DNA from: a virus
IMG/VR virus record: IMGVR_UViG_3300017991_002309
Location: 1 to 22,919 of that record
Strand: one strand, 5' to 3'
Length of the DNA stretch: 22,919 bases
Shown here: positions 2,735 to 22,390 of the stretch, in pieces
How positions within the stretch are numbered: position 1 is the first letter of the stretch
Layout: each line of letters begins with the position of its first letter
Program-made: the position numbers and the translations under genes
The notes under the pieces: model-generated
Told to the model about the DNA's origin: nothing
Database searches by the model: none
Seen by the model: the letters and a program-made list of their open reading frames with translations, nothing else

Positions 2735-3106
2735 ATGGCTAGACGCAGTACCAAGAGAGCTGGCGGCACACCGCCGGCCGCGCCGCCGCCGATCGACCTG
2801 GGCCCGGAGCCGCTGCCGGCGGCCGAGGAGACGACAGAGGCCGCACCGGCGGCCGAACCCGCGCCGATCGACCCCGGCCAGCAATCCGCAATCATCGAGC
2901 TGCCGGTCGCGGAGCTGGGCAACGAATACGTCTCTCGCCACTGCGAGGCCCGGCTCAATCACCGCCAGTCGGTGGCCCTGCAGCGGCTCTTTAACGGGCT
3001 TGACGCCGCCGGCGCGCGGTTGGCCGGCGGCAATCGCATCTACAGTCGCCCCGACGCCGTTCGCTGGCTGCTCGAACAGATTGCGGAGGCGATCGATGGC
3101 AAATAA
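2735..3106 (+). CDS. Hypothetical protein, proline/alanine-rich N-terminus with helical C-terminus
   Basis: A 123-residue protein of unrecognised family. Residues 1-50 are Pro/Ala/Glu-rich and probably disordered. Residues 55-123 look folded: a strand-like AIIELPV stretch, then helices around LNHRQSVALQRLF and DAVRWLLEQIAEAI. The pattern resembles a small helical DNA- or protein-binding domain, but no function is claimed. It starts 13 bases after the terminase stop, with GGAG from the 11-bp duplication as ribosome site. It overlaps the next gene by 11 bases, which suggests translational coupling. Confidence 0.7.
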   Translation: MARRSTKRAGGTPPAAPPPIDLGPEPLPAAEETTEAAPAAEPAPIDPGQQSAIIELPVAELGNEYVSRHCEARLNHRQSVALQRLFNGLDAAGARLAGGNRIYSRPDAVRWLLEQIAEAIDGK

Positions 3107-3464
3107 ACGCTCCCGCCGCAAGACCCCGCCACGCCACGTCCGCGCCCGGGCGCCGGCCAAGACCCGCGGGAAGATGAACGGCCTCGAGGCCGAGTACGCC
3201 GCGATGCTCACCGCCCGGCAGAACATCGGTGCGGTGATCTGGTGGGCCTATGAGTCGATGCGTTTTCAGATCGGACGGCTCGCCTACTACACGCCCGACT
3301 TCGTCGTGCAACTGCCCGACGGCACGATCCAGCTCCACGAGGTCAAGGGCCACTGGCGCCAGGCAGCCCGGGTGCGGATCAAGTGCGCCGCCGAACGGTT
3401 TCCGTTCGACTTCATCGCGGTGCGGAAGGGGAAGGACGGCGCGTGGGAATTCGAGGAGTTTTGA
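3096..3464 (+). CDS. PD-(D/E)XK-like nuclease, DUF1064-like
   Basis: A 122-residue protein. After a basic N-terminus (1-25), the segment NGLEAEYAAML is followed by YYTPDFVV (65-71) and HEVKGHW (81-87). Together these give the E, D and E-x-K residues of a PD-(D/E)XK nuclease core: E33 or nearby, D68, E82, K84. This matches small phage DUF1064 proteins, thought to be resolvase-like or DNA-end-processing nucleases, often near packaging genes. ATG 3096 is chosen over the more upstream in-frame ATG 3000 because GGAGG lies at 3085-3089, six bases before it, and because the upstream extension is unlike the family. It probably trims or resolves DNA during packaging or recombination (inference). Confidence 0.75.
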   Translation: MANKRSRRKTPPRHVRARAPAKTRGKMNGLEAEYAAMLTARQNIGAVIWWAYESMRFQIGRLAYYTPDFVVQLPDGTIQLHEVKGHWRQAARVRIKCAAERFPFDFIAVRKGKDGAWEFEEF

Positions 3465-3467
3465 AAG

Positions 3468-3559
3468 CTGACGGGGTGAGGGGGTGACTGGGTGAGAGAA
3501 CTTTTGTCGTCACCCCGTCACCCCGTCACCCCGTCACCCCGTCACCCCATCACCCCGTC
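3468..3559. repeat. GGGGTGAC-type octamer repeats in inverted arrangement
   Basis: Three forward units (GACGGGGTGAGGGGGTGACTGG region, 3468-3496) are followed by about six reverse units, GTCACCCC repeated (3509-3559). The two arms can pair into a long GC-rich hairpin between the nuclease stop and the ParB-like start. The only T run is in the loop (CTTTTG), so it is not a standard terminator. Confidence 0.85.
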
Positions 3560-3572
3560 CAGAGGACAACCC

Positions 3573-4175
3573 GTGGCCAAAAGAAAAACCAGCGGCGGCC
3601 GAGCGGCCGCGGCGAAACTCGATCACATCGCCGGGGACCTCCGCCCACTGGCCGTGCCGATCGGCGAATTCGTGCTGGATCCCCGCAACGCGCGGAAACA
3701 CGACGAGCAAAACGTCGCGGCGATCGCCGCGAGCCTGCAGCGCTTCGGCCAGCGCAAGCCGATCGTCGCCAACCGCGCCAATAAGCAGATCGAGGCCGGC
3801 AACGGCACGCTGCTGGCGGCGCAGACACTCGGCTGGTCGCAGCTTGCGGTGGTCTGGGTCGAGGACGATCCGGCCGCCGCCACCGGGTTCGCCGTCGCCG
3901 ACAATCGCACCGCCGAGCTGGCGGCCTGGGACGAAGAGATCCTCGCCGACTTGCTCTCGGAGACCCGCGAGGAACTCGGCGATCTCTACGACGAGTTGCT
4001 GCTCGACGAGTTCGACGCCGCCGAGGACGACGACGGCCAGGCCGCCGCCGAGACGTCCCAGGCCGTGCCCGACGCGTTCCAGGTGGTCGTGGACTGCCGC
4101 GACGAGGCCGACCAGAAACGGCTCTACGAACGGCTCCAGAAGGAGGGCCGCAACTGCCGGCTGCTTACCGTGTGA
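3573..4175 (+). CDS. ParB-like N-terminal domain protein
   Basis: A 200-residue protein with a ParB/sulfiredoxin fold core at about residues 27-98. DPRNARKHDEQNV (36-48) is the family's Asn-rich box, then comes AAIAASLQRFGQRKPI, then IEAGNGTLLAAQTLGW (73-88). The usual CTP-binding GxxR box reads GNGT here, as in many phage ParB-like proteins linked to DNA modification rather than partition. AVADNRTAELAAWD (107-120) is also typical of phage members. The C-terminal 32 residues form a separate small domain after an acidic linker. GTG 3573 is chosen because AGAGGA (3561-3566) precedes it; an upstream in-frame ATG at 3492 would translate the octamer repeats. The next gene starts 39 bases downstream. 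Confidence 0.85.
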   Translation: MAKRKTSGGRAAAAKLDHIAGDLRPLAVPIGEFVLDPRNARKHDEQNVAAIAASLQRFGQRKPIVANRANKQIEAGNGTLLAAQTLGWSQLAVVWVEDDPAAATGFAVADNRTAELAAWDEEILADLLSETREELGDLYDELLLDEFDAAEDDDGQAAAETSQAVPDAFQVVVDCRDEADQKRLYERLQKEGRNCRLLTV

Positions 4176-4186
4176 TTGCAGATTTT
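4174..4186 (+). repeat. Fragment of GATTGCA-type repeat
   Basis: GATTGCAGATTTT overlaps the last bases of the ParB-like stop region. It matches one and a half units of the GATTGCA repeats found elsewhere in the window. It is short enough that chance is possible. Confidence 0.4.
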
Positions 4187-4214
4187 CCAACTCGGCGGCC
4201 CCGCGTGAACGATT

Positions 4215-5501
4215 ATGACCAGCAGCCCGGCGAGAATCTCAAAGACTCGCAAGATCGACGTCGCCCTGGCGACGCCGGTGCACCGCTCCTTTCGCGTCGA
4301 CCAGGTCGCCGGCATGTTCGATCTGGCGATCGAAGAGAAGGCCCGCCAGCAGTTCACCGCCGAGGTACCCGCCGCCGGCGAAGACTGGCGGATCGGCGTG
4401 ATCGTCGGCCCCTCGGGCAGCGGCAAGACGAGCATCGCCCGGGCGGCCTTCGGCAAACACCTATACACCGGCTTCCGCTGGCCCAAGGACAAGGCCGTGG
4501 TCGACGGCTTCGGCGAGCGGCTGTCGATCAAAGAGGTTACGCACATGCTTACGGCCGTCGGCTTTTCCTCGCCGCCGAGCTGGGTGAAGCCGTTTCAGGT
4601 CCTCTCCAACGGCGAACAGTTCCGGTGCAACCTGGCCCGGGCGCTGCTATCAATCGGGAAGCTGGTCGCCTACGACGAGTTTACCAGCGTGGTCGATCGC
4701 ACGGTGGCCAAGATCGGCTCTGCGGCGGTCAGCAAGGCGCTGCGCAAGGGCCGGATCGCAAAACAGTTCGTCGCCGTGACCTGCCACTACGACGTGGTCG
4801 AGTGGCTCGAACCCGATTGGGTGCTGGATATGGCAAGCTGCCAGTTGGCAAGGGGGTGTCTTCAGCGACCAACAATTACAATCGAAGTCGCTCCGGTCCA
4901 CCGCTCCGCCTGGGTTCTGTTTCGCCGGCATCACTATCTAAGCGGCGAGATCTCCGTGGGCGCCCGCTGCTTCGCCGCCTTCATTGACCAGCAGCCGGTG
5001 GCCTTTTCCGCCTGGCTGAACTACATAACCAAGGGCCGCCGCCCGCGCGACATGCGCGAACACCGCACCGTCGTCCTGCCCGATTACCAGGGGATCGGGA
5101 TCGGCAACCGCCTGAGCGAATTCTGCGCGTCGATCTGGACGGGCCTCGGCGGCCGCGCGTTTTCGACAACCGGCCACCCGGCGATGATCGGCTATCGCTC
5201 CGCTTCGGCCAACTGGCGGCGGATCCGTTTGGGGATGGTCCGGCCGACCAGCTCCGGCGGCATGTTCCGCAAAACCAGCGCCGACAAGTACGCGGGGAGT
5301 TCCTGCAAGCGGATCACCGGCGGCTTCCAGTACTGCGGCCCCGCCATGCCGCGGGCCCGGGCGCGCGAGTTCGCCGCCGAGTGCACGACCACGATGCAAG
5401 TCTGGCATATTGTCCGACGGCACCCGGGCTGTCGACGCGCGCACTCGCGCAGCGCGCCGACTTATCCATTACGTGCGTGCGGCGCGCCCTGGAAGAACTG
5501 A
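4215..5501 (+). CDS. ABC-type ATPase fused to GNAT acyltransferase (COG2401-like)
   Basis: A 428-residue two-domain protein. The ABC ATPase spans about residues 25-210: Walker A GPSGSGKT (65-72), signature LSNGEQ (130-135, a variant of LSGGQ), Walker B VAYDEF (151-156) with D154 and E155, and the switch histidine H191 in TCHYD. No transmembrane segment is present, so this is not a transporter. The second part (about 220-370) is GNAT-like, with HHYLSG (239-244), an acyl-CoA loop RTVVLPDYQGIGIGNRL (284-300) and a conserved-looking STTGHPAMIGYRSAS stretch (317-331). I recall this ABC plus acetyltransferase fusion as COG2401, function unknown. The final ~40 residues are Arg/Pro/Cys-rich and look like out-of-frame sequence, where the winged-helix gene overlaps. 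The ParB-like neighbour suggests a DNA-linked role. Confidence 0.85.
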   Translation: MTSSPARISKTRKIDVALATPVHRSFRVDQVAGMFDLAIEEKARQQFTAEVPAAGEDWRIGVIVGPSGSGKTSIARAAFGKHLYTGFRWPKDKAVVDGFGERLSIKEVTHMLTAVGFSSPPSWVKPFQVLSNGEQFRCNLARALLSIGKLVAYDEFTSVVDRTVAKIGSAAVSKALRKGRIAKQFVAVTCHYDVVEWLEPDWVLDMASCQLARGCLQRPTITIEVAPVHRSAWVLFRRHHYLSGEISVGARCFAAFIDQQPVAFSAWLNYITKGRRPRDMREHRTVVLPDYQGIGIGNRLSEFCASIWTGLGGRAFSTTGHPAMIGYRSASANWRRIRLGMVRPTSSGGMFRKTSADKYAGSSCKRITGGFQYCGPAMPRARAREFAAECTTTMQVWHIVRRHPGCRRAHSRSAPTYPLRACGAPWKN

Positions 5502-5593
5502 TCGCCGCCGGCGACGTCGAACAAAAGGGCCGCGGCGGCTCCCGGGGGCGGCCGCAGGCGTTCTACGCGCGGGGTGAGGGGGTGACGGGGTGA
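5381..5593 (+). CDS. Small winged helix-turn-helix protein
   Basis: A 70-residue protein read from GTG 5381, overlapping the ABC-GNAT gene by 121 bases in another frame. LSTRALAQRADLSITCVRRALEELIAAGDVEQKG (18-51) is a classic helix-turn-helix plus wing strand, followed by GRPQAFYA typical of a wing. It is probably a transcriptional regulator, with the operator-rich gap downstream as an obvious target. The last residues, GEGVTG and the stop, are encoded by GGGGTGAC repeats, so the repeat has become coding. The start is uncertain: no clear ribosome site is seen. A frameshifted fusion to the upstream gene is possible. Confidence 0.6.
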   Translation: MHDHDASLAYCPTAPGLSTRALAQRADLSITCVRRALEELIAAGDVEQKGRGGSRGRPQAFYARGEGVTG

Positions 5594-5615
5594 GTCGGCG
5601 TTTTCACCCCGTCAC
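5571..5615. repeat. GGGGTGAC repeats forming a perfect 12-bp hairpin
   Basis: GTGACGGGGTGA (5582-5593) pairs perfectly with TCACCCCGTCAC (5604-5615) across a 10-nt loop. The stem contains the stop codon of the winged-helix gene. It lacks a trailing T run, but it is strong enough to block RNA 3' decay or help terminate the upstream operon. Confidence 0.85.
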
Positions 5616-5927
5616 GTCCAGCCGTAACCCCTTCCCTCCCAACGACTTCCGCCTTCCCCCTTCCCCTTTCCGGCTTGTCGGGGATTCCCGATTTCCCCTA
5701 ACCCCTTGCCGGCAAACGACTTAGGGCGTCGTGTTCCGCGTATTTCGCCGGAAATACCGGCCGCTGCCGGACTTTCGGGAGAATTCCGAAACCCGTAAGT
5801 CGCTACCGCGCAAGGACTTCCGATCAAATCCGCCAATCGGGGAGATTTTCTCACTTCCCCCATTTGGGTGGAGTGATATAATAGTAGTAGACGGGGGCAA
5901 GACACCACCTAACATAAGGAACACGCA
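5616..5927. promoter_or_regulatory. Non-coding control region with several inverted repeats
   Basis: This 312-bp stretch is the longest gap without a convincing gene. It opens with a C/T-rich tract (about 5616-5710). Inverted repeats follow: TCGGG...CCCGA (5678-5691), the perfect palindrome TTGCCGGCAA (5706-5715), GCCGG...CCGGC (5747-5761) and TTTCGG...CCGAAA (5773-5791). CGACTTA at about 5717 is the reverse complement of TAAGTCG at about 5795. It ends in a promoter and ribosome site for the 5928 gene. An open frame crosses it (5731-5931), but the composition and the promoter inside it argue against coding. The repressor could be the adjacent winged-helix protein (inference). Confidence 0.5.
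5874..5882 (+). promoter_or_regulatory. Extended -10 promoter
   Basis: TGATATAAT is a perfect TGn plus TATAAT extended -10 element, rare in such GC-rich DNA. No good -35 lies 17 bases upstream (CTTCCC at 5854-5859), which extended -10 promoters do not need. Transcription would start near 5889-5891, about 38 bases before the ATG at 5928. Confidence 0.6.
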
Positions 5928-6377
5928 ATGAACGAGATTCGCCGAGAAGCCCGGGAGCGGGGGCTCGACTGGAACGCGGTCCGCCAGGCGGCGGCGGAGG
6001 TGCGGGACGCGGAACGGGAGAAACGCCAGCGGCCCAACGAGGTGCGGGAGACCGCCTGGATCATGGCCACCGCCTGCACGCCGGCGAGCTGGCCGTTTTG
6101 GCGGCACGGGTTTTACAGCCGCTGGGGGCGGCGGATCGCCCGCGGGGCCGACTACACGGTCATTCCCCGCTACGACGAGATCGCCCAAGAAGTTGGCTGG
6201 TACTTCCCGGAATACTCCGGCGACGACGGCACGGAGCGGCTGTTCGAGTTCCTGCTTTCCCCTTACGACAAACTCCCGACTCGGGAGGAAATCTACCGCA
6301 AGGCGATGGACCTGGTCGAATGCCACAAGGCGATGGACCTGGTCGAATGCCACCAGCCCGCCGCCATTCCTTTTTGA
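5928..6377 (+). CDS. Hypothetical protein with internal 9-residue duplication
   Basis: A 149-residue protein of unrecognised family. The N-terminal 40 residues are a charged helix (ARERGLDWNAVRQAAAEV). The middle is aromatic-rich (ASWPFWRHGFYSRWGRR), followed by DYTVIPRYDEIAQEVGWYFPEY, which looks like a globular core. The C-terminus contains KAMDLVECH twice in a row from an exact 27-bp duplication. ATG 5928 has TAAGGA at 5915-5920 as a good ribosome site and its own promoter upstream. Sitting between a hairpin-flanked gap and the ASCH gene, it begins a probable independently transcribed accessory unit. Confidence 0.7.
   Translation: MNEIRREARERGLDWNAVRQAAAEVRDAEREKRQRPNEVRETAWIMATACTPASWPFWRHGFYSRWGRRIARGADYTVIPRYDEIAQEVGWYFPEYSGDDGTERLFEFLLSPYDKLPTREEIYRKAMDLVECHKAMDLVECHQPAAIPF
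6300..6353 (+). repeat. Exact 27-bp tandem duplication inside a gene
   Basis: The 27-bp unit beginning AAGGCGATGGACCTGG occurs at 6300-6326 and again, without a mismatch, at 6327-6353. It adds nine residues (KAMDLVECH) in frame near the C-terminus. Perfect identity points to a recent event. Confidence 0.95.
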
Positions 6378-6409
6378 CAGATTCACCTTTGATAGATTCA
6401 CCTTATAAT
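6374..6409 (+). promoter_or_regulatory. Tandem 15-bp repeats abutting a consensus -10
   Basis: TTGACAGATTCACCT (6374-6388) and TTGATAGATTCACCT (6389-6403) are followed directly by TATAAT (6404-6409). Both boxes match consensus, but the TTGACA-TATAAT gap is 24 bp, and the second TTGATA leaves only 9 bp. The -10 lies just 2 bp before the ASCH ATG, so a start site there would fall inside the gene. It may be a promoter disrupted by duplication, or an operator pair. Confidence 0.45.
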
Positions 6410-6411
6410 CA

Positions 6412-6831
6412 ATGAAGGCGATCACGCTGCATCCGGTCTGGGCCTGGGCGGTGATCCACGGGCCGAAGCGGGTGGACAACCGGACGTGGGCCACGAGGCA
6501 CCGCGGGCCGTTGTTGATCCACGCCGGCCGTGGCAACGGGCGGGCCGACGCCGAGGCCCGGGCGATCCTCGAGCGACTCGGCGTCGAGGTCCCCGACGAC
6601 GAGCACGTGCCCCGCGGCGTGCTGCTGGGCACGGTCGAGCTGGTCGACGTCGTCCGCCTGGACGAACGCCGCCAGCCCGACCTCTTCAATCTGCAATCTG
6701 CAATCCCCGATCCGCAATCCCTGGCGACCGGCCCGGTCTGCTGGATCCTGGAAAACCCCCGGCCGCTGGCCGAGCCGATCCCCTGCCTCGGGCGGCAGGG
6801 CCTGTTCAACGTGGACTTGACGGAGACTTGA
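6412..6831 (+). CDS. ASCH-domain (PUA-like) protein
   Basis: A 139-residue protein. ITLHPVWAWAVIHGPKRVDNRTW (4-26) and RGPLLIHAG (31-39) are the hallmark start of ASCH domains, which belong to the PUA-like nucleic-acid-binding fold. GVLLGTVELVDVV (69-81) and GPVCWILENPRPL (107-119) complete the barrel. Related PUA-like folds (EVE, SRA, YTH) bind modified bases, so a role sensing modified DNA or RNA is conceivable but unproven. Residues 91-103 (LFNLQSAIPDPQS) are encoded by a GATTGCA-type repeat lying in frame between two conserved strands. No Shine-Dalgarno precedes ATG 6412. A GGGGTGAC repeat begins at the stop. Confidence 0.85.
   Translation: MKAITLHPVWAWAVIHGPKRVDNRTWATRHRGPLLIHAGRGNGRADAEARAILERLGVEVPDDEHVPRGVLLGTVELVDVVRLDERRQPDLFNLQSAIPDPQSLATGPVCWILENPRPLAEPIPCLGRQGLFNVDLTET
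6686..6721 (-). repeat. GATTGCA-type repeat inside the ASCH coding sequence
   Basis: On the + strand CAATCTGCAATCTGCAATCC and then CCGATCCGCAATCCC are the reverse orientation of the intergenic GATTGCA repeats. Here the array is read through in frame as FNLQSAIPDPQS. Confidence 0.85.
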
Positions 6832-6848
6832 GGGGGTGACGGGGTGAG
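6831..6848 (+). repeat. Two GGGGTGAC units between ASCH gene and small membrane gene
   Basis: GGGGGTGACGGGGTGAG follows the ASCH stop (6829-6831). It may also provide ribosome pairing (GGTGA) for the next gene. Confidence 0.8.
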
Positions 6849-6855
6849 TGCCGAT

Positions 6856-6963
6856 ATGCCCGATCCCGACGACGAAACTCTGACCCCGCAGTGGATAGCG
6901 CTGCTGGTGGCAATCGCCGTTCTCTTCTTCACGCTCAGGGCCTGCGGCCTGATTGATCTCTAG
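6856..6963 (+). CDS. Small single-pass membrane protein
   Basis: A 35-residue open frame from ATG 6856 to TAG 6961-6963. An in-frame GTG 6844 would add four residues. The N-terminus is acidic and short (MPDPDDETLTPQ), followed by a hydrophobic helix WIALLVAIAVLFFTL (13-27) and a short tail RACGLIDL. The acidic N-terminus with Arg after the helix suggests an outside-N, inside-C topology. Its function is unknown; small membrane proteins in phage accessory units can act in exclusion or lysis, but nothing here shows that. GGGGTGA of the repeat lies 10-15 bases upstream as the only ribosome-site candidate. Confidence 0.55.
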   Translation: MPDPDDETLTPQWIALLVAIAVLFFTLRACGLIDL

Positions 6964-7083: not shown

Positions 7084-7374
7084 ATGTCCACGCTGAGCAG
7101 CTCTAGCACGCTGGCCGAGGTCCAGGCCGCTTACGACGACAGCGCCTCGTATGCCGAAGACGAATCGGTCGGCAAGGCGGCGGCGTTTATCACCGCCTGT
7201 CGCGTGCTCTTGCGGCGCCTGCCCAAGCGGGCGGTACACGGCGGCCGCGAGACCGAAGAGATCGAGCTGGACCCGGCGATGATCCGCAAAGAACTCAGCG
7301 AGGCCCGGCGGTGGATCGCCGATCGGAGCACCGCGACGCTGCGGTTCGCCAGCTTCCAAGACTTTCGCGATTGA
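7084..7374 (+). CDS. gpW-like head-tail connector candidate
   Basis: A 96-residue helical protein directly before the portal, the position of gpW in lambda (between terminase and portal). STLAEVQAAYDDSASYAEDESV forms a first helix region, then AFITACRVLLRRLPK. A variable middle (HGGRETEEIELD) follows, and then IRKELSEARRWIADRS. This helix, loop, helix layout with basic patches resembles gpW-type proteins that seat on the portal after packaging. ATG 7084 is preferred to the upstream TTG 7078. No strong Shine-Dalgarno is visible. The sequence is longer than lambda gpW (68 residues), so the family call is tentative. Confidence 0.55.
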   Translation: MSTLSSSSTLAEVQAAYDDSASYAEDESVGKAAAFITACRVLLRRLPKRAVHGGRETEEIELDPAMIRKELSEARRWIADRSTATLRFASFQDFRD

Positions 7375-7401: not shown

Positions 7402-8985
7402 GTGTCCAGATGCCGACGGGACGTATCGACGCTTTCGAGCCCGGAACTGTTCGAGCAGTTCCGCTCGGACTACAACGCCGCCAAGGCCAGCCGCTACCGC
7501 CGCACACCGGCGGGCGTCTCTGCGGTCGGTTCTTCCGCCGATTACCACTACCGCACGGAGTCCGATTACTTGCGGATGATGGAGCTGGCCCGGCATTTCT
7601 TCCGCAATAACCCCGTGATCGCCCAGGCCGTCCGCCGGTTGGTGACCAACTGTATCCAGGACGGGTTCGCGCTGGACCCGCAGACCGGCAACGACAAGGC
7701 CGACAAGATACTCGCCGGGCGTTGGGCCGAGTGGTCGCGACAATGCGATCTGTGCGACGTGGCCGGGCGACTGTCGTTTCACCAGCAGGAACAGCTTGTG
7801 CTGCAATCGACGATCGTCGACGGCGACGTGCTGGTGTTGCCACAGCGGACCGGGCAGTTGCAGTTGGTCGAGGCCCACCGGCTGCGCAGCCCGACCAACG
7901 CCCGTTGCCGCCGGGCGGCCGGCACGCAGCTAGTGCACGGCGTACTGCTCGACCGGCTCCGCCGGCCGCTGGAGTACTGGCTTACCGCCGACGACATCAA
8001 TCCCAGCCGGCGGGTCCGCCGCGTAAACGAGATGCGGCGCTACGCGGCCCGCGACGCCGAGGGCCGCCGCCAGGTGTTCCACATTTACTGGCCCGATCGC
8101 ATCTCGCAGACCCGGGGGATCACGGCCTTCGCCCCGTCGGTAGACACGATTGGCATGGGCGACGACCTGTTCTTCGCGATGCTGGTCAAAGCGCAACACG
8201 GGTCGGTCTATTCGATTTTTCACGAGTTCCCGGAGTTGTATGACGGCGCGGCTCCGCCGCAAAAGGGCGAGCAAGAGACCGAAACGCTGTCGGACGGCTC
8301 CACCCGGACGATTGAGGGCGTCGCGCCGGGGATGGAGATCTTCGGCCGCCCGGGCGAAAAGCTCACCGGCTTTACGCCGAACATCCCCAATCCCGAGTTC
8401 TTCGCCCACGCCAAGCTGATCCTCACGATGATCTCGATCAACCTGGACCTGCCGCTGGCGGTGTTCTTGCTCGACCCGAGCGAGACCAACTTCAGCGGCT
8501 GGCGGGGCGCGATCGACCAGGCCCGCTTGGGATTCCGCCGCATCCAACGCTGGCTCTGCGGCGCCTTTCACGAGCCGGTCTACCAGTTCAAGGTCCGTCA
8601 GTGGATCGCCGCCGACGCCGTGCTGGAGGCCATCGGCCGGCAAGAGGGTGTCAATCTGTTCGCCCACCGCTGGCACCCGCCCGAGTGGAAATACATCGAG
8701 CCGCTGAAGGACGCCTCGGCCGATCTGCTGCGCTGTCGCAACGCGCTGATCTCGCACCGCCGCCGCTGTAACGAACGAGGGCTCGACTGGAACGACCTGA
8801 GCACCGAGATCGTCGACGACAACGCGATGCTGATCCGCAAGGCCAAGCAAAAGGCCGACGAGTTGAACAAGGAGTTTCCCGACCTCTCCGTCACCTGGCG
8901 TGAGGTCGCCAGTCTGCCCACGCCCGACGGCGTAAAGATCGGCATCGAGGCCCACAGCGAGGAGAAGACCGCCGATGGGAAATAA
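7402..8985 (+). CDS. Portal protein, lambda gpB family
   Basis: A 527-residue portal forming the dodecameric DNA channel at the capsid vertex. Family features include NPVIAQAVRRLVTNCIQDGF (70-89), DGDVLVL (140-146), VEAHRLRSP (156-164), SQTRGITAFAP (235-245) and ISINLDLPLAVFLLDPS (344-360). NFSGWRGAIDQARLGFRRIQ (363-382) matches the lambda-type portal motif usually written NYSSaRaa. The length fits lambda gpB (533). GTG 7402 is taken as the start because the N-terminal helix ELFEQFRSDYNAAKASRYRR matches the family; its ribosome site is weak. It overlaps the protease gene by 11 bases. Confidence 0.93.
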   Translation: MSRCRRDVSTLSSPELFEQFRSDYNAAKASRYRRTPAGVSAVGSSADYHYRTESDYLRMMELARHFFRNNPVIAQAVRRLVTNCIQDGFALDPQTGNDKADKILAGRWAEWSRQCDLCDVAGRLSFHQQEQLVLQSTIVDGDVLVLPQRTGQLQLVEAHRLRSPTNARCRRAAGTQLVHGVLLDRLRRPLEYWLTADDINPSRRVRRVNEMRRYAARDAEGRRQVFHIYWPDRISQTRGITAFAPSVDTIGMGDDLFFAMLVKAQHGSVYSIFHEFPELYDGAAPPQKGEQETETLSDGSTRTIEGVAPGMEIFGRPGEKLTGFTPNIPNPEFFAHAKLILTMISINLDLPLAVFLLDPSETNFSGWRGAIDQARLGFRRIQRWLCGAFHEPVYQFKVRQWIAADAVLEAIGRQEGVNLFAHRWHPPEWKYIEPLKDASADLLRCRNALISHRRRCNERGLDWNDLSTEIVDDNAMLIRKAKQKADELNKEFPDLSVTWREVASLPTPDGVKIGIEAHSEEKTADGK

Positions 8986-11514: not shown

Positions 11515-11530
11515 GTCGGAAACCCGAAAA

Positions 11531-11575
11531 GCTGAAAACTGAAAACTGATAACTGATAACTGGAAACTAACAACT
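11531..11575 (+). repeat. ACTGAAA-type tandem repeat
   Basis: Seven-base units (GCTGAAA, ACTGAAA, ACTGATA, ACTGATA, ACTGGAA, ACTAACAACTC) fill the gap between the decoration and capsid genes. They are degenerate toward the 3' end, just before AAAGGAGAG, the capsid ribosome site. Confidence 0.85.
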
Positions 11576-13343: not shown

Positions 13344-13376
13344 GAACTGAAAACTGACTACTGAAAACTGAGAACT
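13344..13376 (+). repeat. ACTGAAA-type repeat
   Basis: AACTGAAAACTGACTACTG followed by AAAACTGAGAACTA gives four to five degenerate seven-base units ending four bases before the GTG at 13381. No separate ribosome site is visible. Confidence 0.8.
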
Positions 13377-13908: not shown

Positions 13909-13942
13909 GAGATTGCAGATTGAAGATTGAAGATTGCAGAAG
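13909..13942 (+). repeat. GATTGCA-type repeat, four units
   Basis: GAGATTGCAGATTGAAGATT followed by GAAGATTGCAGAAG lies after the previous stop. It ends in the GATTGCAGAAG junction seen at four gaps in the window. Confidence 0.85.
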
Positions 13943-14497: not shown

Positions 14498-14508
14498 GAA
14501 ATAACCAT

Positions 14509-14582
14509 GACGGGGTGACAAGGTGACCGGGTGACGGGGTGATTGACCCCCTCACCCCCTCACCCCGTCACCCCCTCACCCC
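14509..14582. repeat. GGGGTGAC repeats in inverted arrangement
   Basis: Four forward units (14509-14542, including degenerate ACAAGGTGACC) face about five reverse units (14545-14582, CACCCC repeated). The arms can fold into a long hairpin just before AAGGAA, the ribosome site of the next gene. Confidence 0.85.
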
Positions 14583-14596
14583 GAAAGGAAAAACCA

Positions 14597-15202
14597 ATGC
14601 CCACGGCAAGCCTCAGCACACAGATCAGCGTCGAGGGGACCTCGATCTCGGCGACGCTCAATCGCACCGGCGACGCGGCGATCGCCATCGAGCCGGAGGC
14701 CGGGCTGCTGGCCGGCCAGGCCGGCAGCCTGACCACGAAGACCGACGAGGACACCGGCGTGGCCACGCTGGGCGAGGACCACGGCATCCAGACGGCCGAC
14801 AAGGTCGACGTCTACTGGACGGGCGGCAAACGCTACGGCATGGACGCCACCGTCGACGGCAACGACGTGACGATCGACCTCGGCGACGGCGACAACCTCC
14901 CGGACCAGGACACCGCCGTGGTGGTCTGCAAACGGCAGGAAGCCGACGAGGATTTCGACGGCGACGACCTGGACTTTATCGCCGTCTATAGCTCCAAGCG
15001 GGCGATCGTCGAGTTCACCGAGGACGACGACACCTCGATCCTCGTGCTGGAGATCCCCGCCGGCGAGTTCTGGTTCTGGGACGAGAGCAGCAACTACGAC
15101 AACCCGCTGACCGGCGACCCGGTGGGCAAGATCAAGTTCTCCAACGGCGACACGGCCGCGGGAACAATCACAATCGTGGGGCTGAAGGATACGGTGAGTT
15201 AG
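14597..15202 (+). CDS. Acidic tail structural protein, unassigned
   Basis: A 201-residue, very acidic, beta-rich protein: SLSTQISVEGTSISATL (5-21), TADKVDVYWTGGKRYGM, TVDGNDVTIDLGDGDNLP, AVVVCKRQ, RAIVEFTEDDDTSILVLEIPAGEFWFWDESSNYDNP, GTITIVGLKDTVS. The strand-and-loop pattern fits a tail tube, neck or tail-associated beta-sandwich, and it immediately precedes the tube candidate. ATG 14597 has AAGGAA about seven bases upstream; an in-frame ATG at 14543 would translate repeats. The last two codons and stop lie in a block also found at the end of the next gene. Confidence 0.6.
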   Translation: MPTASLSTQISVEGTSISATLNRTGDAAIAIEPEAGLLAGQAGSLTTKTDEDTGVATLGEDHGIQTADKVDVYWTGGKRYGMDATVDGNDVTIDLGDGDNLPDQDTAVVVCKRQEADEDFDGDDLDFIAVYSSKRAIVEFTEDDDTSILVLEIPAGEFWFWDESSNYDNPLTGDPVGKIKFSNGDTAAGTITIVGLKDTVS

Positions 15203-15234
15203 TGAGGGGGTGACGGGGTGAGGGGGTGACGGGG
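15193..15234 (+). repeat. GGGGTGAC repeats with a block shared with 16137-16166
   Basis: GGTGAGTTAGTGAGGGG starts inside the final codons of the upstream gene and continues as octamers. The same 30 bases, with one mismatch, end the next gene at 16137-16166. Confidence 0.9.
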
Positions 15235-15235
15235 C

Positions 15236-15250
15236 CTGAAAACTGAAAAC
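15236..15250 (+). repeat. Short ACTGAAA-type repeat
   Basis: CTGAAAACTGAAAAC, two units, follows the octamer array directly. GGAGA before ATG 15271 lies just downstream. Confidence 0.75.
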
Positions 15251-15270: not shown

Positions 15271-16146
15271 ATGAGCTTAACAGCAATCCACGGCCTCGGG
15301 CCGGTCAAGATCGGCTCGACCGTGATCGGCGGCGTGACCGATGCGAGCGTCGATCTCGACACCAACCTGGTGGGCGAGCCGACCAGCGGCGAGATCTACA
15401 CCCGCCACCAGTCGATCGCCGGCCAAAAGCCCGGCGGCAAGTTCACCAGCAACAACATCGCCCAGACGCTGGCGGTCTGCGCGTCGCTGGGCTGCTCGTT
15501 GGACACATACCCGTTGACGATTTTCGCCGCCAAGCGGTCGGCCGGGGCGCCGGCCGCCGGCGCCGTCCACCGCCAATACGTGTTGCGCGGCGGCCTGCTG
15601 GTCCCCCGGCAGTTGACCTGCGAGCACCAGGGCGACGCCTCGCTGAGCTACGAGGCGATCGTGGCCTACGACGGCGGCAACGACCCGATCGTCAAAACCG
15701 ATAACGTCTCGCTGCCGGCCGGGCTGACCGACCTGAGATACTCGCTGTACACCGCCTCGATCGGCGGACTATCGATTTCCGACGAGTGGAAGTCGTTGAC
15801 GATCGACTGGGGGATTGAGGTCCAGACCCAGGGCGGCGGCAGCGAGATCTGGGACTCGAAAATCTGGATCTCGAAGATCGAGCCGACGATCACCCTCCGC
15901 GGCATCGAGCAGACCTGGTTCGATTCGATCCCGCTGCTGGGCGCGGCGGCCACCAACGCCACAATCGTGCTGCGCAAGCGGGCCGACGGCGGCACGTGGG
16001 CCGGCAGCGGCGATGTCACGCTAACCGCCAGCGGGATCGTCGTCCCGCAGCAGCCCCTGAAGGCTTCGGGCGATAACCCCGACGAATCGACGCTGCTGTT
16101 GACCGTCAAGTACGACGGGACCAACGTCCCGATCCGGGTGAGTTAG
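15271..16146 (+). CDS. Major tail tube protein candidate (gpV-like)
   Basis: A 291-residue beta-rich protein. Features include AIHGLGPVKIGSTVIGGVTDASVDLDTNLV (5-34), EIYTRHQSIAGQKPGGKFTSNNIA (41-64), then repeated strand pairs LTCEHQGDASLSYEAIVAYDGG, LTIDWGIEVQTQGGGSEIWDSKIW and ATIVLRKRADGG. A C-terminal part rich in Thr and Val ends in LLLTVKYDGTNVPIRVS. A beta protein of this size just before the frameshifting chaperone and the tape measure is expected to be the tail tube, which stacks as hexamers around the DNA channel. GGAGA lies about 10 bases before the ATG. The C-terminus ends VS-stop inside the shared repeat block. Confidence 0.65.
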   Translation: MSLTAIHGLGPVKIGSTVIGGVTDASVDLDTNLVGEPTSGEIYTRHQSIAGQKPGGKFTSNNIAQTLAVCASLGCSLDTYPLTIFAAKRSAGAPAAGAVHRQYVLRGGLLVPRQLTCEHQGDASLSYEAIVAYDGGNDPIVKTDNVSLPAGLTDLRYSLYTASIGGLSISDEWKSLTIDWGIEVQTQGGGSEIWDSKIWISKIEPTITLRGIEQTWFDSIPLLGAAATNATIVLRKRADGGTWAGSGDVTLTASGIVVPQQPLKASGDNPDESTLLLTVKYDGTNVPIRVS

Positions 16147-16205
16147 TGAGGGGCTGACGGGGTGAGCGGGTGACGGGGTGAGCGGGTGACGGGGTGAGGA
16201 GGTGA
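16137..16205 (+). repeat. GGGGTGAC octamer array grading into a Shine-Dalgarno
   Basis: About eight direct units alternate GGGGTGAC/GGGGTGAG/CGGGTGAC. The last unit has an A inserted, giving GAGGAGGTGA (16196-16205), four bases before the ATG at 16210. This is a near-perfect complement of the usual 16S rRNA 3' end. Confidence 0.9.
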
Positions 16206-16209
16206 AAAG

Positions 16210-17016
16210 ATGAGCGGATTTTTGTATTACGTGCCCGGGCACGAGCGGCCCACGGTGACCGCCGAGGAGCTGCGGGAGCGGGGGATCGACTATGCCTTCG
16301 ACGGCCGCTGGACAGCCGCGGCCGTCCGCGGCGGGCCCGACGAGCAGCACGGCAGCATCATCGCCGACCAGCAGCGCGTGGCGGCGGAGCGGATCGGCTA
16401 CTACCCGCAGCAGCAGACCTGGCGGCGGATCCCCGCTTCGGCGCTGTGGATCGGCTACTACACGGCCGAGCGTCCGGGACCGGCCGACTTGATTAGGCCC
16501 GAGCCGCTGGAGGGTCACCTGGTCACGCTCGGCGACGGCCGGGCCTGGATGGCGCCGATCGCGCGGGCTTGGTTCGAGATTGAGCAGCCGGAGGAACACC
16601 TGGTCTGGTTCTGCAAACTGCCCGAGGCGGTCACGCTCGACGACGAGGGGAACTGGGCGAGCGGTGCCGTGGTCGCGCAGTACCGGCCGCTCTGGGAGAT
16701 CGCCGAGCGTTGGTGGGACGCGATCAACGGCGCCGACCTGCACGTGCAAGACAAACCGCAACGGGTGCGGTTCGACTTCGAGGGCATCAACGACGCGGCG
16801 TTGCTGGCCCTGGGGACCAACTACCGGCTGGGCCGCGTGGAGGTGGACGTGTTGGGACTGTTCACCGATCAGACCGTCCACGCCGTGCTCGGCGCGCTGA
16901 TCGACTGGCCGACGATGGAGCAATTTCTGAAAAAAAAACTCAAAACATCAGCAGCCGGTGGCTCCGGTTCCGCGCCTGGGCCGCCGGCCGGGCCGCCGGA
17001 TACCGGCCCACCATAG
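16210..17016 (+). CDS. Tail assembly chaperone, unshifted form (gpG-like)
   Basis: A 268-residue protein between the tube and tape measure genes, the position of lambda G. The body is mixed alpha/beta: MSGFLYYVPGHERPTVTAEEL (1-21), WIGYYTAERPGPADLIRPEPL (80-100), EEHLVWFCKLPEAVTLDDEGNW, YRPLWEIAERWWDAINGADLHV, then ALLALGTNYRLGRVEVDVLGLFTD and LIDWPTMEQFLKKK. These chaperones coat the tape measure while the tail grows. After the A9 run the zero frame ends in a low-complexity tail (GGSGSAPGPPAGPPDTGPP), which looks like read-past sequence rather than a domain. The ribosome site is GAGGAGGTGA. Confidence 0.7.
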   Translation: MSGFLYYVPGHERPTVTAEELRERGIDYAFDGRWTAAAVRGGPDEQHGSIIADQQRVAAERIGYYPQQQTWRRIPASALWIGYYTAERPGPADLIRPEPLEGHLVTLGDGRAWMAPIARAWFEIEQPEEHLVWFCKLPEAVTLDDEGNWASGAVVAQYRPLWEIAERWWDAINGADLHVQDKPQRVRFDFEGINDAALLALGTNYRLGRVEVDVLGLFTDQTVHAVLGALIDWPTMEQFLKKKLKTSAAGGSGSAPGPPAGPPDTGPP

Positions 17017-17097: not shown

Positions 17098-17178
17098 TGA
17101 GGGGGTGACGGGGTGAGGGGGTGACGGGGTGAATCACCCGATCACCCAGTCACCCGATCACCCAGTCACCCGATCATC
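17098..17178. repeat. GGGGTGAC repeats facing ATCACCCA/GTCACCCG repeats
   Basis: Four forward units (17099-17132) are followed by six reverse units of a diverged type, alternating ATCACCCG, ATCACCCA, GTCACCCG (17134-17178). The arms can pair with mismatches. They separate the tail chaperone gene from the tape measure gene. Confidence 0.85.
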
Positions 17179-17195
17179 CATCCGAGCCTCGAACC

Positions 17196-18953
17196 ATGGC
17201 CGACGGCGGAATCGTTATCGAGATGTCGAGCGAGGAATCCAAGCTTTGGCGAGGGTTCCAGTCGATCATTGCGCAGCAGACGAAGATGGAAGGCGGGCTG
17301 CAAAAGGTCGGCGCCGCCGGCAACAAGGCCGCCGCCGAGCAACGCAAGCTGGAGCAGGCCGCCAAACGGGTTTACGAGCAGACGCGGAGTCCGCAGGAGC
17401 GCTACGCGGCCAAAATGCAGCAGCTCAATATGTTGGTCGGGCGGGGAAAAATCTCGCAAGACACCTACGCCCGGGCCACCCGGCAGGCCACCGAGCAGAT
17501 GCGGGCCGCCGGCCAGGCCGGCACCAACGCCTTTGGCCCGAAAATGATGGGCATGGTCACCGGGCTGATCGGCGCGCTGGGTCTCGGCGGCGGCGTGGCC
17601 GGGGCGGTGATGAAGATCAATCAGGCCTACGAGGTCTGGCTGGAGAATATGCGGGAGATTTCCGCCGAGGCCAAGCGGGCCGGCGACGATATAATCGCCT
17701 TCGCCGCGCTGCAAGAGGGCGGCACAAAGGGCCAGCGGGTAATGGATGCGGCCATGCTGGCGGCGCGTTACGGGATCAGCGACCGCGGCGCGGCCTTCAA
17801 CGCCGTGCAGGCGCTGCAGTCGGCCCACGGCGGCGACATTGAAAAGGGGATGGCGGCCGCCGAGACCGTTTTCGCCGCCAAGCAGGTCGGCGTGCCCACC
17901 GAGATGGGCCTGGAGCTGGAGGTCCTCGGCGCGTCCCAGGGCATGAAGCCCGGCGATGCGCTGCGGATGGCCTACGTCGCCGGCCAGGAATCCGCCCGCG
18001 ACCCGGCCACGCTGGCCGGCGGGGCCGCCGGGCTGAAGTTTTGGGAAGACAAGCAGTTCGGCTTCGCCGCCGCCGGCGTCCTGGCCGGCTCGGTCAAAAA
18101 AGACCAGCTCTCGACCTACCTCAAACGCGGCGGCCAGGCGCTCTCGCGGGTCGGACCGGAGGGCGCGGCGAAGCGGTTCGAGGCGGCCGGCCTGGGCGAC
18201 GCCGGCCAGGCCGAGCGGTTGAAGTATCTGGCCGCCGAAGGCATCGACACCGCGGAAAAACTCAAGCAGTTCGGCTTCACCGAAATCCACCAGGTCGAAG
18301 CGCTTACGGCCCTGGTGCCGAACTATCAAAACGTATTGCGAATCCAGCAGACTATCGGCCGCAAGGCCCGGCCGGGCCTGCTGGCCGAACAACGCCGGGC
18401 GGTCGAAGAGGAGCTGCCGTTTACCAAAACCACTCGCCAGATTGGCCAGCTCGACGTGATGTTCGCCGACGAACAGGCCTTCGGCGCCGGCAAGGACGCC
18501 GCGCTGGCCCAAGAACGCCGGCAGGCGACCCGGGCGATCGCCTTCGAGCGGATGGGAAAGCGGCAGAGCCTCTGGTTCGACCTCATAAAGCGCGGCGAAG
18601 AGGGCGGCGGACGATCCACCGAGGCCGACGTCGCACAATACTTATTCGGCGAGACGGCAAAGGGCATGGCGGGCGGCGGCGGCCGGGCCGCGCAAGGCCT
18701 CGGCGCGGGCCTGCCAGGCGGACTCGGTTTGCTCCTCCGCGGCGGCGCCGGACTGTGGCGAGGCGTCGGCGCCAGCCGCGAACTCGCCGCAGAGACGGGC
18801 AAGATCGAGGCCGAACTCTCCAGCAACGACCCATTGGTGCAGACGAGCCAAGAGCAGACGAACCTGCTGAAACAGATCGCCGCCAACACGGCCTCCGGCA
18901 ACGCCCCACCCGGCGGCAACGCCACGCTGGTCCCGGCGACCGTGGATAAATGA
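17196..18953 (+). CDS. Tail tape measure protein
   Basis: A 585-residue protein following the tail chaperone. The N-terminal 110 residues are coiled coil with many Gln, Lys and Ala (AAAEQRKLEQAAKRVYEQTR). Then comes a hydrophobic Gly-rich helix (about 117-138, MGMVTGLIGALGLGGGVAGAV) as in tape measures that insert into the host membrane. The body is long and helical, with low-complexity Ala/Gly, a second Gly-rich stretch (about 487-520) and the C-terminal helix LVQTSQEQTNLLKQIAANTA. Tape length sets tail length; at about 1.5 angstrom per residue this predicts a tail near 88 nm. No clear peptidase or lysozyme motif was seen. The ribosome site is weak. Confidence 0.88.
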   Translation: MADGGIVIEMSSEESKLWRGFQSIIAQQTKMEGGLQKVGAAGNKAAAEQRKLEQAAKRVYEQTRSPQERYAAKMQQLNMLVGRGKISQDTYARATRQATEQMRAAGQAGTNAFGPKMMGMVTGLIGALGLGGGVAGAVMKINQAYEVWLENMREISAEAKRAGDDIIAFAALQEGGTKGQRVMDAAMLAARYGISDRGAAFNAVQALQSAHGGDIEKGMAAAETVFAAKQVGVPTEMGLELEVLGASQGMKPGDALRMAYVAGQESARDPATLAGGAAGLKFWEDKQFGFAAAGVLAGSVKKDQLSTYLKRGGQALSRVGPEGAAKRFEAAGLGDAGQAERLKYLAAEGIDTAEKLKQFGFTEIHQVEALTALVPNYQNVLRIQQTIGRKARPGLLAEQRRAVEEELPFTKTTRQIGQLDVMFADEQAFGAGKDAALAQERRQATRAIAFERMGKRQSLWFDLIKRGEEGGGRSTEADVAQYLFGETAKGMAGGGGRAAQGLGAGLPGGLGLLLRGGAGLWRGVGASRELAAETGKIEAELSSNDPLVQTSQEQTNLLKQIAANTASGNAPPGGNATLVPATVDK

Positions 18954-18996
18954 TTGCAGATTGCAGATTGCAGAAGTACTGACAACTGAAAACTAA
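18953..18996 (+). repeat. GATTGCA repeat followed by ACTGAAA repeat
   Basis: ATTGCAGATTGCAGATTGCA, then GAAG (to 18976), passes directly into TACTGACAACTGAAAACTAA before the ATG at 18999. The GATTGCAGAAG junction is shared with the other composite gaps. No Shine-Dalgarno is visible. Confidence 0.9.
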
Positions 18997-19362: not shown

Positions 19363-19424
19363 GATTACAGGTTGAAGATTGCAGAAGAGAACTGAAAACT
19401 GACAACTGACAACTGAGAACTCAA
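19363..19424 (+). repeat. GATTGCA repeat followed by ACTGAAA repeat
   Basis: A degenerate GATTACAGGTTGAAGATTGC, then AGAAG, leads into GAACTGAAAACTGACAACTG, then ACAACTGAGAACTC. This is the same composite order as at 18953-18996. It ends two bases before ATG 19426. Confidence 0.88.
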
Positions 19425-19425
19425 A

Positions 19426-19983
19426 ATGATTACCGCTTACAACGCCGAACGCGACGGGAACTTCACCACGGTCACCGTGATCAGCGACCTCGGCGGAACG
19501 ATTTACTATCACTGGTACTGCGACGGCGCGCTGCTGTGCTCGACGCAAGCGCCGAGCCACACGTTTTGGCTGCCGGCCGCCGAGCAGTCGCGGATCGAGG
19601 TGCTCGATACGAACGATCCGGACTTCGATGCCGTGGCCAACGCCCCGGCCGGCTACCCGGCGCGGAAAACGCTGTGGTGGATCCGCTCGCCGGCGGAAGA
19701 CGTACTGCACTATCGCGTCGAGCAAAAACAGGATGCCGGGGCCTGGGCGCAGATCGCCGAGCTTCCTGCCGTGGCCGGGCAATGGGATTACACGCTGATA
19801 ACCGATCGGCTGACCGACCTGGCCGAATATACCTGGCGGGTCGTGGCCGTCGACGAGCTGGGCAACGAGAGCACGGCCGCGGTGATCGGACCCGAGCGGA
19901 TCGTGCGGATCCCCGACGCCGTGGAGTTCGAGATTGCCTTCGACCCGGAGACGACGCGGGTTACGTTTGCCGCCGCGGCGTAG
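19426..19983 (+). CDS. Fibronectin type III-like tail protein
   Basis: A 185-residue beta-sandwich protein. FTTVTVISDLGGTIYYHWYCDGALLCST (13-40) reads as an Ig/FN3-like strand set, and the second half (about 80-165) gives a cleaner FN3 pattern: LWWIRSPAEDVLHYRVEQKQDAGAWAQIAEL, WDYTLITDRLTDLAEYTWRVVAVDELGNES. Such domains are common in phage tail-tip and fibre proteins and aid weak binding to surface sugars. It ends VEFEIAFDPETTRVTFAAAA. The start at ATG 19426 follows GAGAACTCAAA, a weak ribosome site made by the repeat. Confidence 0.7.
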   Translation: MITAYNAERDGNFTTVTVISDLGGTIYYHWYCDGALLCSTQAPSHTFWLPAAEQSRIEVLDTNDPDFDAVANAPAGYPARKTLWWIRSPAEDVLHYRVEQKQDAGAWAQIAELPAVAGQWDYTLITDRLTDLAEYTWRVVAVDELGNESTAAVIGPERIVRIPDAVEFEIAFDPETTRVTFAAAA

Positions 19984-21009: not shown

Positions 21010-21324
21010 ATGCCTGACTACAGAATCATTGATATTCGGCCCGGTGCGGGCGAAGCGGCGTTGGCCGTCCGCGTGGTCGTGGCCGGTCGGACGAAGGCGG
21101 TTGATCTGATTTTCGACGAGAAACCGCCCGACCTGGAGGCGGCTATCGAAACGGCCGTGGCCGATCTGCCGCCGGAATCGCCGCTTGCTCCCGAACAGAG
21201 CGGCCGCCGTTTTTTGCGGCCGATCCTCGATCTCTGTCGCGGCCTCGACGACGGCCTGCTGTCGATCGATTCTGCGGCGATGCAGATGCTCTTAAAGCGG
21301 ATCGACGCACAGCGAAAAGCCTGA
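21010..21324 (+). CDS. Small hypothetical protein with duplicated 3' end
   Basis: A 104-residue protein. The N-terminal half is beta-like (YRIIDIRPGAGEAALAVRVVVAGRTKAVDLIFD, 4-36), the C-terminal half helical (RRFLRPILDLCRGLDDGLLSI... MQMLLKRIDAQRKA). The family is not recognised; a fibre-assembly or attachment role would fit its place before the fibre gene. No Shine-Dalgarno precedes ATG 21010. The last 17 codons plus the following gene's start are copied in a 79-bp duplication. Confidence 0.6.
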   Translation: MPDYRIIDIRPGAGEAALAVRVVVAGRTKAVDLIFDEKPPDLEAAIETAVADLPPESPLAPEQSGRRFLRPILDLCRGLDDGLLSIDSAAMQMLLKRIDAQRKA

Positions 21325-21428
21325 AGGTGTTCACATGTTGCTTAAAGAATCTGCGGCGATGCAGATGCTCTTAAAGCGGATCGACGCACAGCGAAAAGCC
21401 TGAAGGTGCTCACATGTCGCTTAAAGAA
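21271..21428 (+). repeat. 79-bp tandem duplication, 77/79 identical
   Basis: The unit 21271-21349 repeats at 21350-21428 with two differences (T/C in GGTGT/GGTGC and in ATGTTG/ATGTCG). Each copy carries the 3' end of one gene plus the ribosome site and first codons of the next. CTTAAAG occurs twice within each unit, offering microhomology for the event. Confidence 0.95.
21335..21403 (+). CDS. Chimeric 22-codon mini-ORF made by the duplication
   Basis: ATG 21335 to TGA 21403 encodes a start of the fibre gene (MLLKE) fused to the last 17 residues of the 21010 gene (SAAMQMLLKRIDAQRKA). AAGGTG lies about seven bases upstream, so it has the same initiation signal as the fibre gene. It may be translated, but a function is doubtful; it is listed because it has an intact signal and is too short for routine gene finding. 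Confidence 0.35.
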   Translation: MLLKESAAMQMLLKRIDAQRKA

Positions 21429-22355: not shown

Positions 22356-22390
22356 GACGGGTGACGGGGTGACGGGGTGATGGGGTGAGG
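22356..22390 (+). repeat. GGGGTGAC octamer array before the last gene
   Basis: GACGGGTGACGGGGTGACGG followed by GGTGATGGGGTGAGG gives four units, ending two bases before ATG 22393. The final GTGAGG is the only ribosome-site candidate. Confidence 0.88.

Follow-up and report, generated by a model that had tools for sequence, protein, structure and literature searches.

What does a ParB-like protein do beside an ATPase that is fused to an acyltransferase? The question is raised by a stretch of viral DNA, positions 1 to 22,919 of IMG/VR record IMGVR_UViG_3300017991_002309, which was analysed over its whole length of 22,919 nucleotides (the window). Between its terminase and portal genes, a ParB-like gene is followed by a gene for an ABC ATPase domain joined to a GNAT acyltransferase domain (ABC-GNAT), and the ParB-like protein ends in a short module, here called TAIL. 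On balance, we regard it as somewhat probable that the pair is a Mom-like system for the acylation of DNA bases, in which an exchangeable ParB-like protein is docked through TAIL. The open reading frames (ORFs) and domains concerned are as follows.

3573-4175, +, ParB-like protein, 200 aa, GTG start, N-terminal ParB/Srx-type domain (phrog_620, E 7e-29)
4062-4172, +, TAIL, ~37-residue C-terminal module of the ParB-like protein (AVPDAFQVVVDCRDEADQKRLYERLQKEGRNCRLLTV; hidden Markov model (HMM) E 6e-15)
4215-4850, +, ABC ATPase domain (Pfam ABC_tran, 29.1 bits against a cut-off of 25; alignment invariants)
4851-5351, +, GNAT acyltransferase domain (HHYL motif; acyl-CoA loop VVLPDYQGIGIG; Pfam Acetyltransf_1)
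5381-5593, +, winged-helix ORF, detached C-terminal domain of ABC-GNAT

The ParB-like ORF probably starts at the GTG at 3573, which was chosen over 3492 by the sequence AGAGGA at 3561-3566. The protein scores below the cut-offs of the canonical partition ParB profiles (TIGR00180, 19.7 against 58.45 bits; Pfam ParB_N, 13.8 against 26.3 bits, E 0.061). The ABC-GNAT ORF spans 4215-5501, with its core reaching to ~5351, and its ABC domain lies in the same reading frame as ParB, 39 nt away.

A module that accompanies ABC-GNAT

Recurrence of the pair in other phages had been set beforehand as a check on the original prediction, and the pair does recur, with 193 non-redundant loci after removal of near-duplicates, 187 of them evaluable for TAIL. 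ABC-GNAT was found by protein search in 55 of 50,697 phage records, in IMG/VR contigs (46 in a first scan and more than 590 in a profile scan), and in 512 stretches of prokaryote genomes, the best 80 of these 512 being mostly from Planctomycetota. The pair is present in phages of Gordonia, Arthrobacter, Rhodococcus, Lactococcus (P335), Streptococcus, Oenococcus, Pseudomonas and Porphyromonas, and many Planctomycetota prophages also carry it. The order in annotated phages is ParB, ABC, GNAT; phages of Lactococcus, Streptococcus and Oenococcus encode the last two separately.

TAIL has the consensus FQVVVECxDExxQxxLxERLxxEGxxCRxLTL. Its HMM was built from loci L001-L064 only and then run on all loci. 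The module lies immediately 5′ of the ATPase ORF, or inside it, in 177 of the 187 evaluable loci; it forms the C-terminus of a ParB-like protein in 162 of these, a stand-alone short ORF in 12, the end of a protein with another or unrecognised N-terminal part in 2, and part of a single ORF, ParB-TAIL-ABC-GNAT, in one (L138). It is displaced but nearby in two further loci and absent from eight. Over 45,789 ORFs the HMM gave no unrelated match, and just the two displaced copies scored beyond the 177. Similarly, a 40-residue stand-alone TAIL used as query gave 21 matches in the 50,697 phage records, every one with ABC-GNAT. In an independent and even selection of 294 Planctomycetota genomes, none of which was used for the profile, TAIL was found in 11 of 11 ParBs adjoining ABC-GNAT and in 0 of 16 other ParBs. 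The 16, which include the Mom-linked ParB of phage Appa, end in different modules or in methyltransferases. At one locus (L153, 4152-6575) a single ABC-GNAT lies between two ParB-like genes, and TAIL is on the downstream ParB.

Co-variation, taken as the correlation of distance matrices over 147 loci, relates TAIL more closely to the enzyme than to the protein it belongs to. TAIL correlates with the ABC domain at r 0.71 (bootstrap 0.66-0.76) and with GNAT at 0.65, as against 0.39 with its own ParB domain; the ParB domain correlates with ABC at 0.45. The partial correlation of TAIL with ParB given ABC is 0.10, and that of TAIL with ABC given ParB is 0.66, a value reached in 0 of 500 permutations. 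TAIL thus tracks ABC and not ParB: each ATPase keeps its TAIL, and the ParB domain in front of that TAIL is exchanged. Judged from these sequence comparisons, TAIL probably docks ParB onto the ABC ATPase. A structure model of ParB with ABC, made from an alignment of rows with both in one frame and stops read as G, gave a predicted template modelling score (pTM) of 0.58, and the docking claim does not rest on it.

Alternatively, TAIL may be kept for reasons of translation or RNA, as part of coupled overlapping genes comparable to com, which overlaps mom in Mu. In favour of such coupling, overlaps of 4, 19 or 22 nt between the TAIL ORF and the start of ABC are frequent. Nevertheless, TAIL is still conserved in the 31 of 176 pairs in which ParB and ABC share one frame and overlap is impossible, as across the 39-nt gap of the window, and in the single-ORF fusion L138. 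The conservation is at the amino-acid level and extends across very different phages. We therefore consider coupling quite unlikely to be what preserves TAIL.

The enzyme and its proposed function

ABC-GNAT of the window is a full-length match to phrog_11143 (E 1.4e-97; residues 18-377 on profile positions 5-352 of 357). The ABC motifs are complete: Walker A GPSGSGKT, signature LSNGE, Walker B/D-loop DEFTSVVDR, and H-loop CHYD. Across 30 aligned sequences the invariant residues are G65, S67, K71, S131, G133, D154, E155 and H191, together with R284, V286, P289 and G293. The whole protein scores 22.2 bits against the Acetyltransf_1 cut-off of 20.7. The AlphaFold model of the GNAT domain has a predicted local distance difference test (pLDDT) value of 87.7 and matches an IAA acetyltransferase in Foldseek at E 4.6e-8; its PDB matches are GNAT acetyltransferases, and in a viral structure library it matches a Mom protein at E 8e-5. 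The matches of the ABC part point to an ATPase of transporter type (ABC_tran 29 bits; best PDB matches, the nucleotide-binding domains of exporters; SMC_N, E 0.022). No permease was found by profile searches in the ten ORFs scanned around ABC-GNAT, and PADLOC gave no whole-protein match for it.

A winged helix-turn-helix (wHTH) had been predicted as a gene of its own. That gene was ruled out, since the winged helix is the in-frame C-terminal continuation of ABC-GNAT in L145, L146 and L147 (65-70% identity), and in the window it is the same domain out of frame. The break lies near 5430, where HIVRRHPG stands in the ABC-GNAT frame and the remainder (LSTRALAQRADLSITCVRRALEELIAAGDV) in another. 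The break is shared by locus L001, which aligns gap-free over 10.3 kb at 99.99% identity and may not be an independent assembly. GntR and helix-turn-helix (HTH) matches of this ORF are below cut-off.

In the mechanism that we propose, the ParB-like domain would bind DNA or a nucleotide and recruit the complex there. TAIL, as a ParB C-terminus or a free miniprotein, would dock on the ABC ATPase, which would dimerise with ATP on DNA and expose a base, and the GNAT domain would take acyl-CoA and carry out the transfer. The winged helix may contribute an extra DNA contact in the window virus. The acylated target is most likely a base amine of the DNA of the phage itself, and the presumed purpose is protection. 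Genes that may tailor the acyl group are found at some loci: ABC-GNAT is followed by a formyltransferase gene in phages of Gordonia, in Mu-like phages and in an IncP plasmid (a copy that looks 5′-truncated), and by an aspartate-decarboxylase-like gene in phage Jace, a Gemmataceae metagenome-assembled genome and one virus contig. DNA-base modification had been suggested, beside protection of packaged DNA or DNA-end handling, for the whole block of about 4 kb; the modification reading fits the pair but not the rest. For the pair it is drawn from the recurrent pairing, the published ABC-GNAT prediction, the ParB companions of modifying enzymes elsewhere, and the overlap of a ParB gene with a Mom gene. 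That overlap occurs in phage Appa, where a ParB-like gene lies directly upstream of, and overlaps, a Mom-like gene. The Appa protein is 38% identical to the window ParB in the shared domain and ends in CPSC (a CPxC motif) instead of TAIL. A wider proposal, which we hold tentatively, is that ParB-like proteins serve many phage DNA-modifying enzymes as exchangeable DNA-loading subunits, each coupled by a short C-terminal adaptor of its own (TAIL in the case of ABC-GNAT), and that a novel base acylated by ABC-GNAT is diversified by the formyltransferases and decarboxylases encoded downstream.

Several observations weigh against base acylation with a docked ParB. The copy of ABC-GNAT in the window is frame-broken near its 3′ end. 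The closest solved folds of GNAT are acetyltransferases for proteins or small molecules. Pfam Mom (PF25680) gave no match for the window GNAT and matched one of 24 family members at E 0.035; hhalign of GNAT against Mom gave an insignificant probability of 7%. Direct homology to Mom was dropped since these profile comparisons are insignificant. TAIL adjoins the ABC gene, so that hitch-hiking by physical closeness may partly explain the co-variation. The eight loci without TAIL, mostly a divergent clade that includes T4-like phages and pT24, indicate that neither ParB nor TAIL is indispensable.

The fold matches raise the possibility that the enzyme acetylates proteins in order to take over the host or counter its defences, comparable to Rac, a phage precedent that acts on RNA polymerase (PMC7824862). 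Such a role would leave the ParB partner, the ABC fusion and the winged helix unaccounted for, and Mom is also overlapped by a ParB gene; we think it improbable. An RNA-base acetyltransferase acting on tRNA is less probable still. It would agree with TmcA (2zpa), which turned up in both PDB fold searches and has a similar NTPase-GNAT architecture. Against it are the ParB companions, which go with DNA-modification systems, and the genomic place of the pair, beside terminase or behind tail genes.

Linkage to terminase has been scored as well. TerL, the large subunit, starts at most 2.5 kb downstream in 104 of the 162 loci whose flanks are long enough (median 435 nt), and at least three TerL families are involved; by simple geometry, and not by a formal null, one would expect TerL that near in a few per cent of cases in a 40-60 kb genome. 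The linkage that had been proposed for scoring is thus found, usually with TerL downstream of the pair and not upstream as in the window. It would suit a packaging or segregation factor, in which ParB loads the ABC ATPase on DNA near terminase and GNAT regulates. Chromosomal ParB, which loads SMC on DNA, is a precedent. Nevertheless, the ABC part is of transporter type and too short for an SMC coiled coil, the conserved GNAT active-site region would be left without explanation, and Mu-like phages have the pair after their tail genes, at a distance from terminase. Packaging is therefore unlikely, though of the other functions considered for the pair it is the least so, and base acylation through a TAIL-docked ParB is retained.

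Neighbouring genes and repeats of the window

The listed ORFs from TerS to portal are all on the plus strand, and the host is probably a planctomycete, as judged from the relatives of the virus. The other features are as follows.

105-728, +, TerS (upstream flank)
673-2721, +, terminase large subunit TerL, GpA type (PF05876, E 4e-26; upstream flank)
2735-3106, +, ORF of unknown function between TerL and the nuclease
3096-3464, +, PD-(D/E)XK-like small nuclease (TPDF...HEVKG; phrog_190, E 4e-16)
5928-6377, +, ORF5928, unknown (no PHROG or NCBIfam match; Pfam matches only below cut-off)
6412-6831, +, ASCH-domain protein (Pfam ASCH, 21.6 bits against a cut-off of 21.2; phrog_3193, E 7e-37)
near 7084-7374, +, small ORF that precedes the portal
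7402-8985, +, portal, lambda family (PF05136, E 8e-57; downstream flank)
3469-3559, 5571-5616, 6835-6846, 14506-14582, 15201-15236, 16146-16217, 17098-17180, 22359-22388: blocks of an 8-bp unit (CGTCACCC/GGGTGACG)

Profile matches bear out the nuclease, ParB-like, ABC-GNAT and ASCH ORFs that had been read between the terminase and a lambda-type portal. The further claim that they form one island did not survive comparison, and the 4 kb block as a single cassette was rejected, as the neighbours do not travel together across loci. By BLAST among the relatives, the nuclease is confined to the window and to L001 and L047, which are copies of the window. ORF5928 has homologues in a few relatives (for instance L145-L148, L150 and L095), and ASCH lies within 6 kb of the module in 29 of 225 loci, on mixed strands; the distance and strand of both relative to ABC-GNAT vary elsewhere. 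Nuclease, ORF5928 and ASCH are lineage-specific passengers and not parts of the module. An insertion of ~4.2 kb had also been proposed, of which the composition gives no sign (GC content 0.63-0.69 in the block, 0.58-0.72 across the window), and relative L146 repeats the order ParB, ABC-GNAT, ORF5928, ASCH, ORF7078, portal. Two side observations concern these genes. In Streptococcus phage MismyG (L060, 7123-7491) an ASCH protein beside ParB-ABC-GNAT matches the PADLOC candidate defence family PDC-M11B (E 6e-39). ORF5928 contains an exact 27-bp tandem duplication at 6299-6353, which gives KAMDLVECH twice.

A promoter belonging to the block had been predicted, and one sigma-70-like match was found, at 6382-6409 (0.3 expected). 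It is weak, with its TATAAT 2 nt ahead of the ASCH ATG, and a TATAAT near 5877 has no -35 match. The hairpins and operators ascribed to the island turned out to be a feature of the whole window: the 8-bp unit forms short tandem blocks at many gene boundaries, some as inverted pairs, and CACCCCGTCACC with at most 2 mismatches has 41 matches against 3.7 expected. Tandem blocks of 7-bp units (GAAAACT, AACTGAA, AGATTGA, GATTGCA) also lie between genes at 11526-11575, 13345-13376, 13910-13940, 18952-18974 and 19390-19426. A 79-bp tandem duplication, 97% identical, at 21271-21428 overlaps two successive ORFs, the first at its end and the second at its start.

Comparison with known systems

TmcA/NAT10 is an NTPase fused to GNAT that acetylates the base amine of a tRNA cytidine. 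It is like ABC-GNAT in this fusion and differs in its helicase-type NTPase, its RNA substrate and the lack of a ParB. Mom of Mu, which acylates adenine at N6, shares with the module the GNAT fold, an HY motif at the equivalent place in the profile alignment, and a small upstream ORF, whereas it has no ABC domain and its profile similarity is insignificant. The Mom-like gene in Appa is preceded by a ParB gene as ABC-GNAT is, and some Mu-like phages carry ABC-GNAT behind their tail genes. Aeromonas phage PX29 (L259 and L057) has a Mom-like gene as well as a TAIL-less ABC-GNAT.

Split trios resemble the module in having the same three domains in the same order. In four chromosomal-looking loci of Planctomycetota (L243, L246, L250, L252) the genes encode an HTH protein, ParB, an ABC ATPase and a separate GNAT, and the ParB ends in VxLEVPxxxWxxV...IRLHV, which is different from TAIL. 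On ~110-kb Acinetobacter plasmids with phage genes (L264, 4357-7074), ParB, ABC, thioredoxin and a GNAT-like ORF lie upstream of terminase. The trios differ from the module in their separate ABC and GNAT genes, their other ParB C-termini and the lack of TAIL.

ABC-GNAT was known before as a predicted DNA modifier: the prediction, given in PMC7824862 with reference to Iyer 2013, is that it places an uncharacterised acyl modification on a DNA base. The family is the same, phage pT24 being among the matches of the window protein, although pT24 belongs to the clade without TAIL. As restated in PMC7824862, the prediction comes with no mention of a ParB partner, TAIL, fused winged helix or tailoring genes; beyond that restatement, the present analysis adds the TAIL link and the exchange of modules, together with the winged-helix fusion, the tailoring genes and the split trios. 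No paper was found under the term COG2401.

ParB-like proteins accompany other enzymes of DNA modification. DpdB is the ParB-like partner of DpdA (PMC12839542, PMC6392294), and in phage CRB2 the two lie near the terminase genes (PMC6392294). This system, which inserts 7-deazaguanine, likewise pairs a ParB-like protein with a base-modifying enzyme, whereas DpdA is a transglycosylase and neither ABC nor GNAT is present. A ParB-like gene also occurs with thymidine hypermodification genes (PMC11955845), and CmoX has a ParB-like partner whose role there was called unknown in a 2025 study (PMC12783734). For one such pairing TAIL offers an adaptor as a testable answer. Through TAIL it is also easy to recognise ABC-GNAT genes, which can be examined directly for a new DNA base and which named phages list as 'ABC transporter' or 'hypothetical'.

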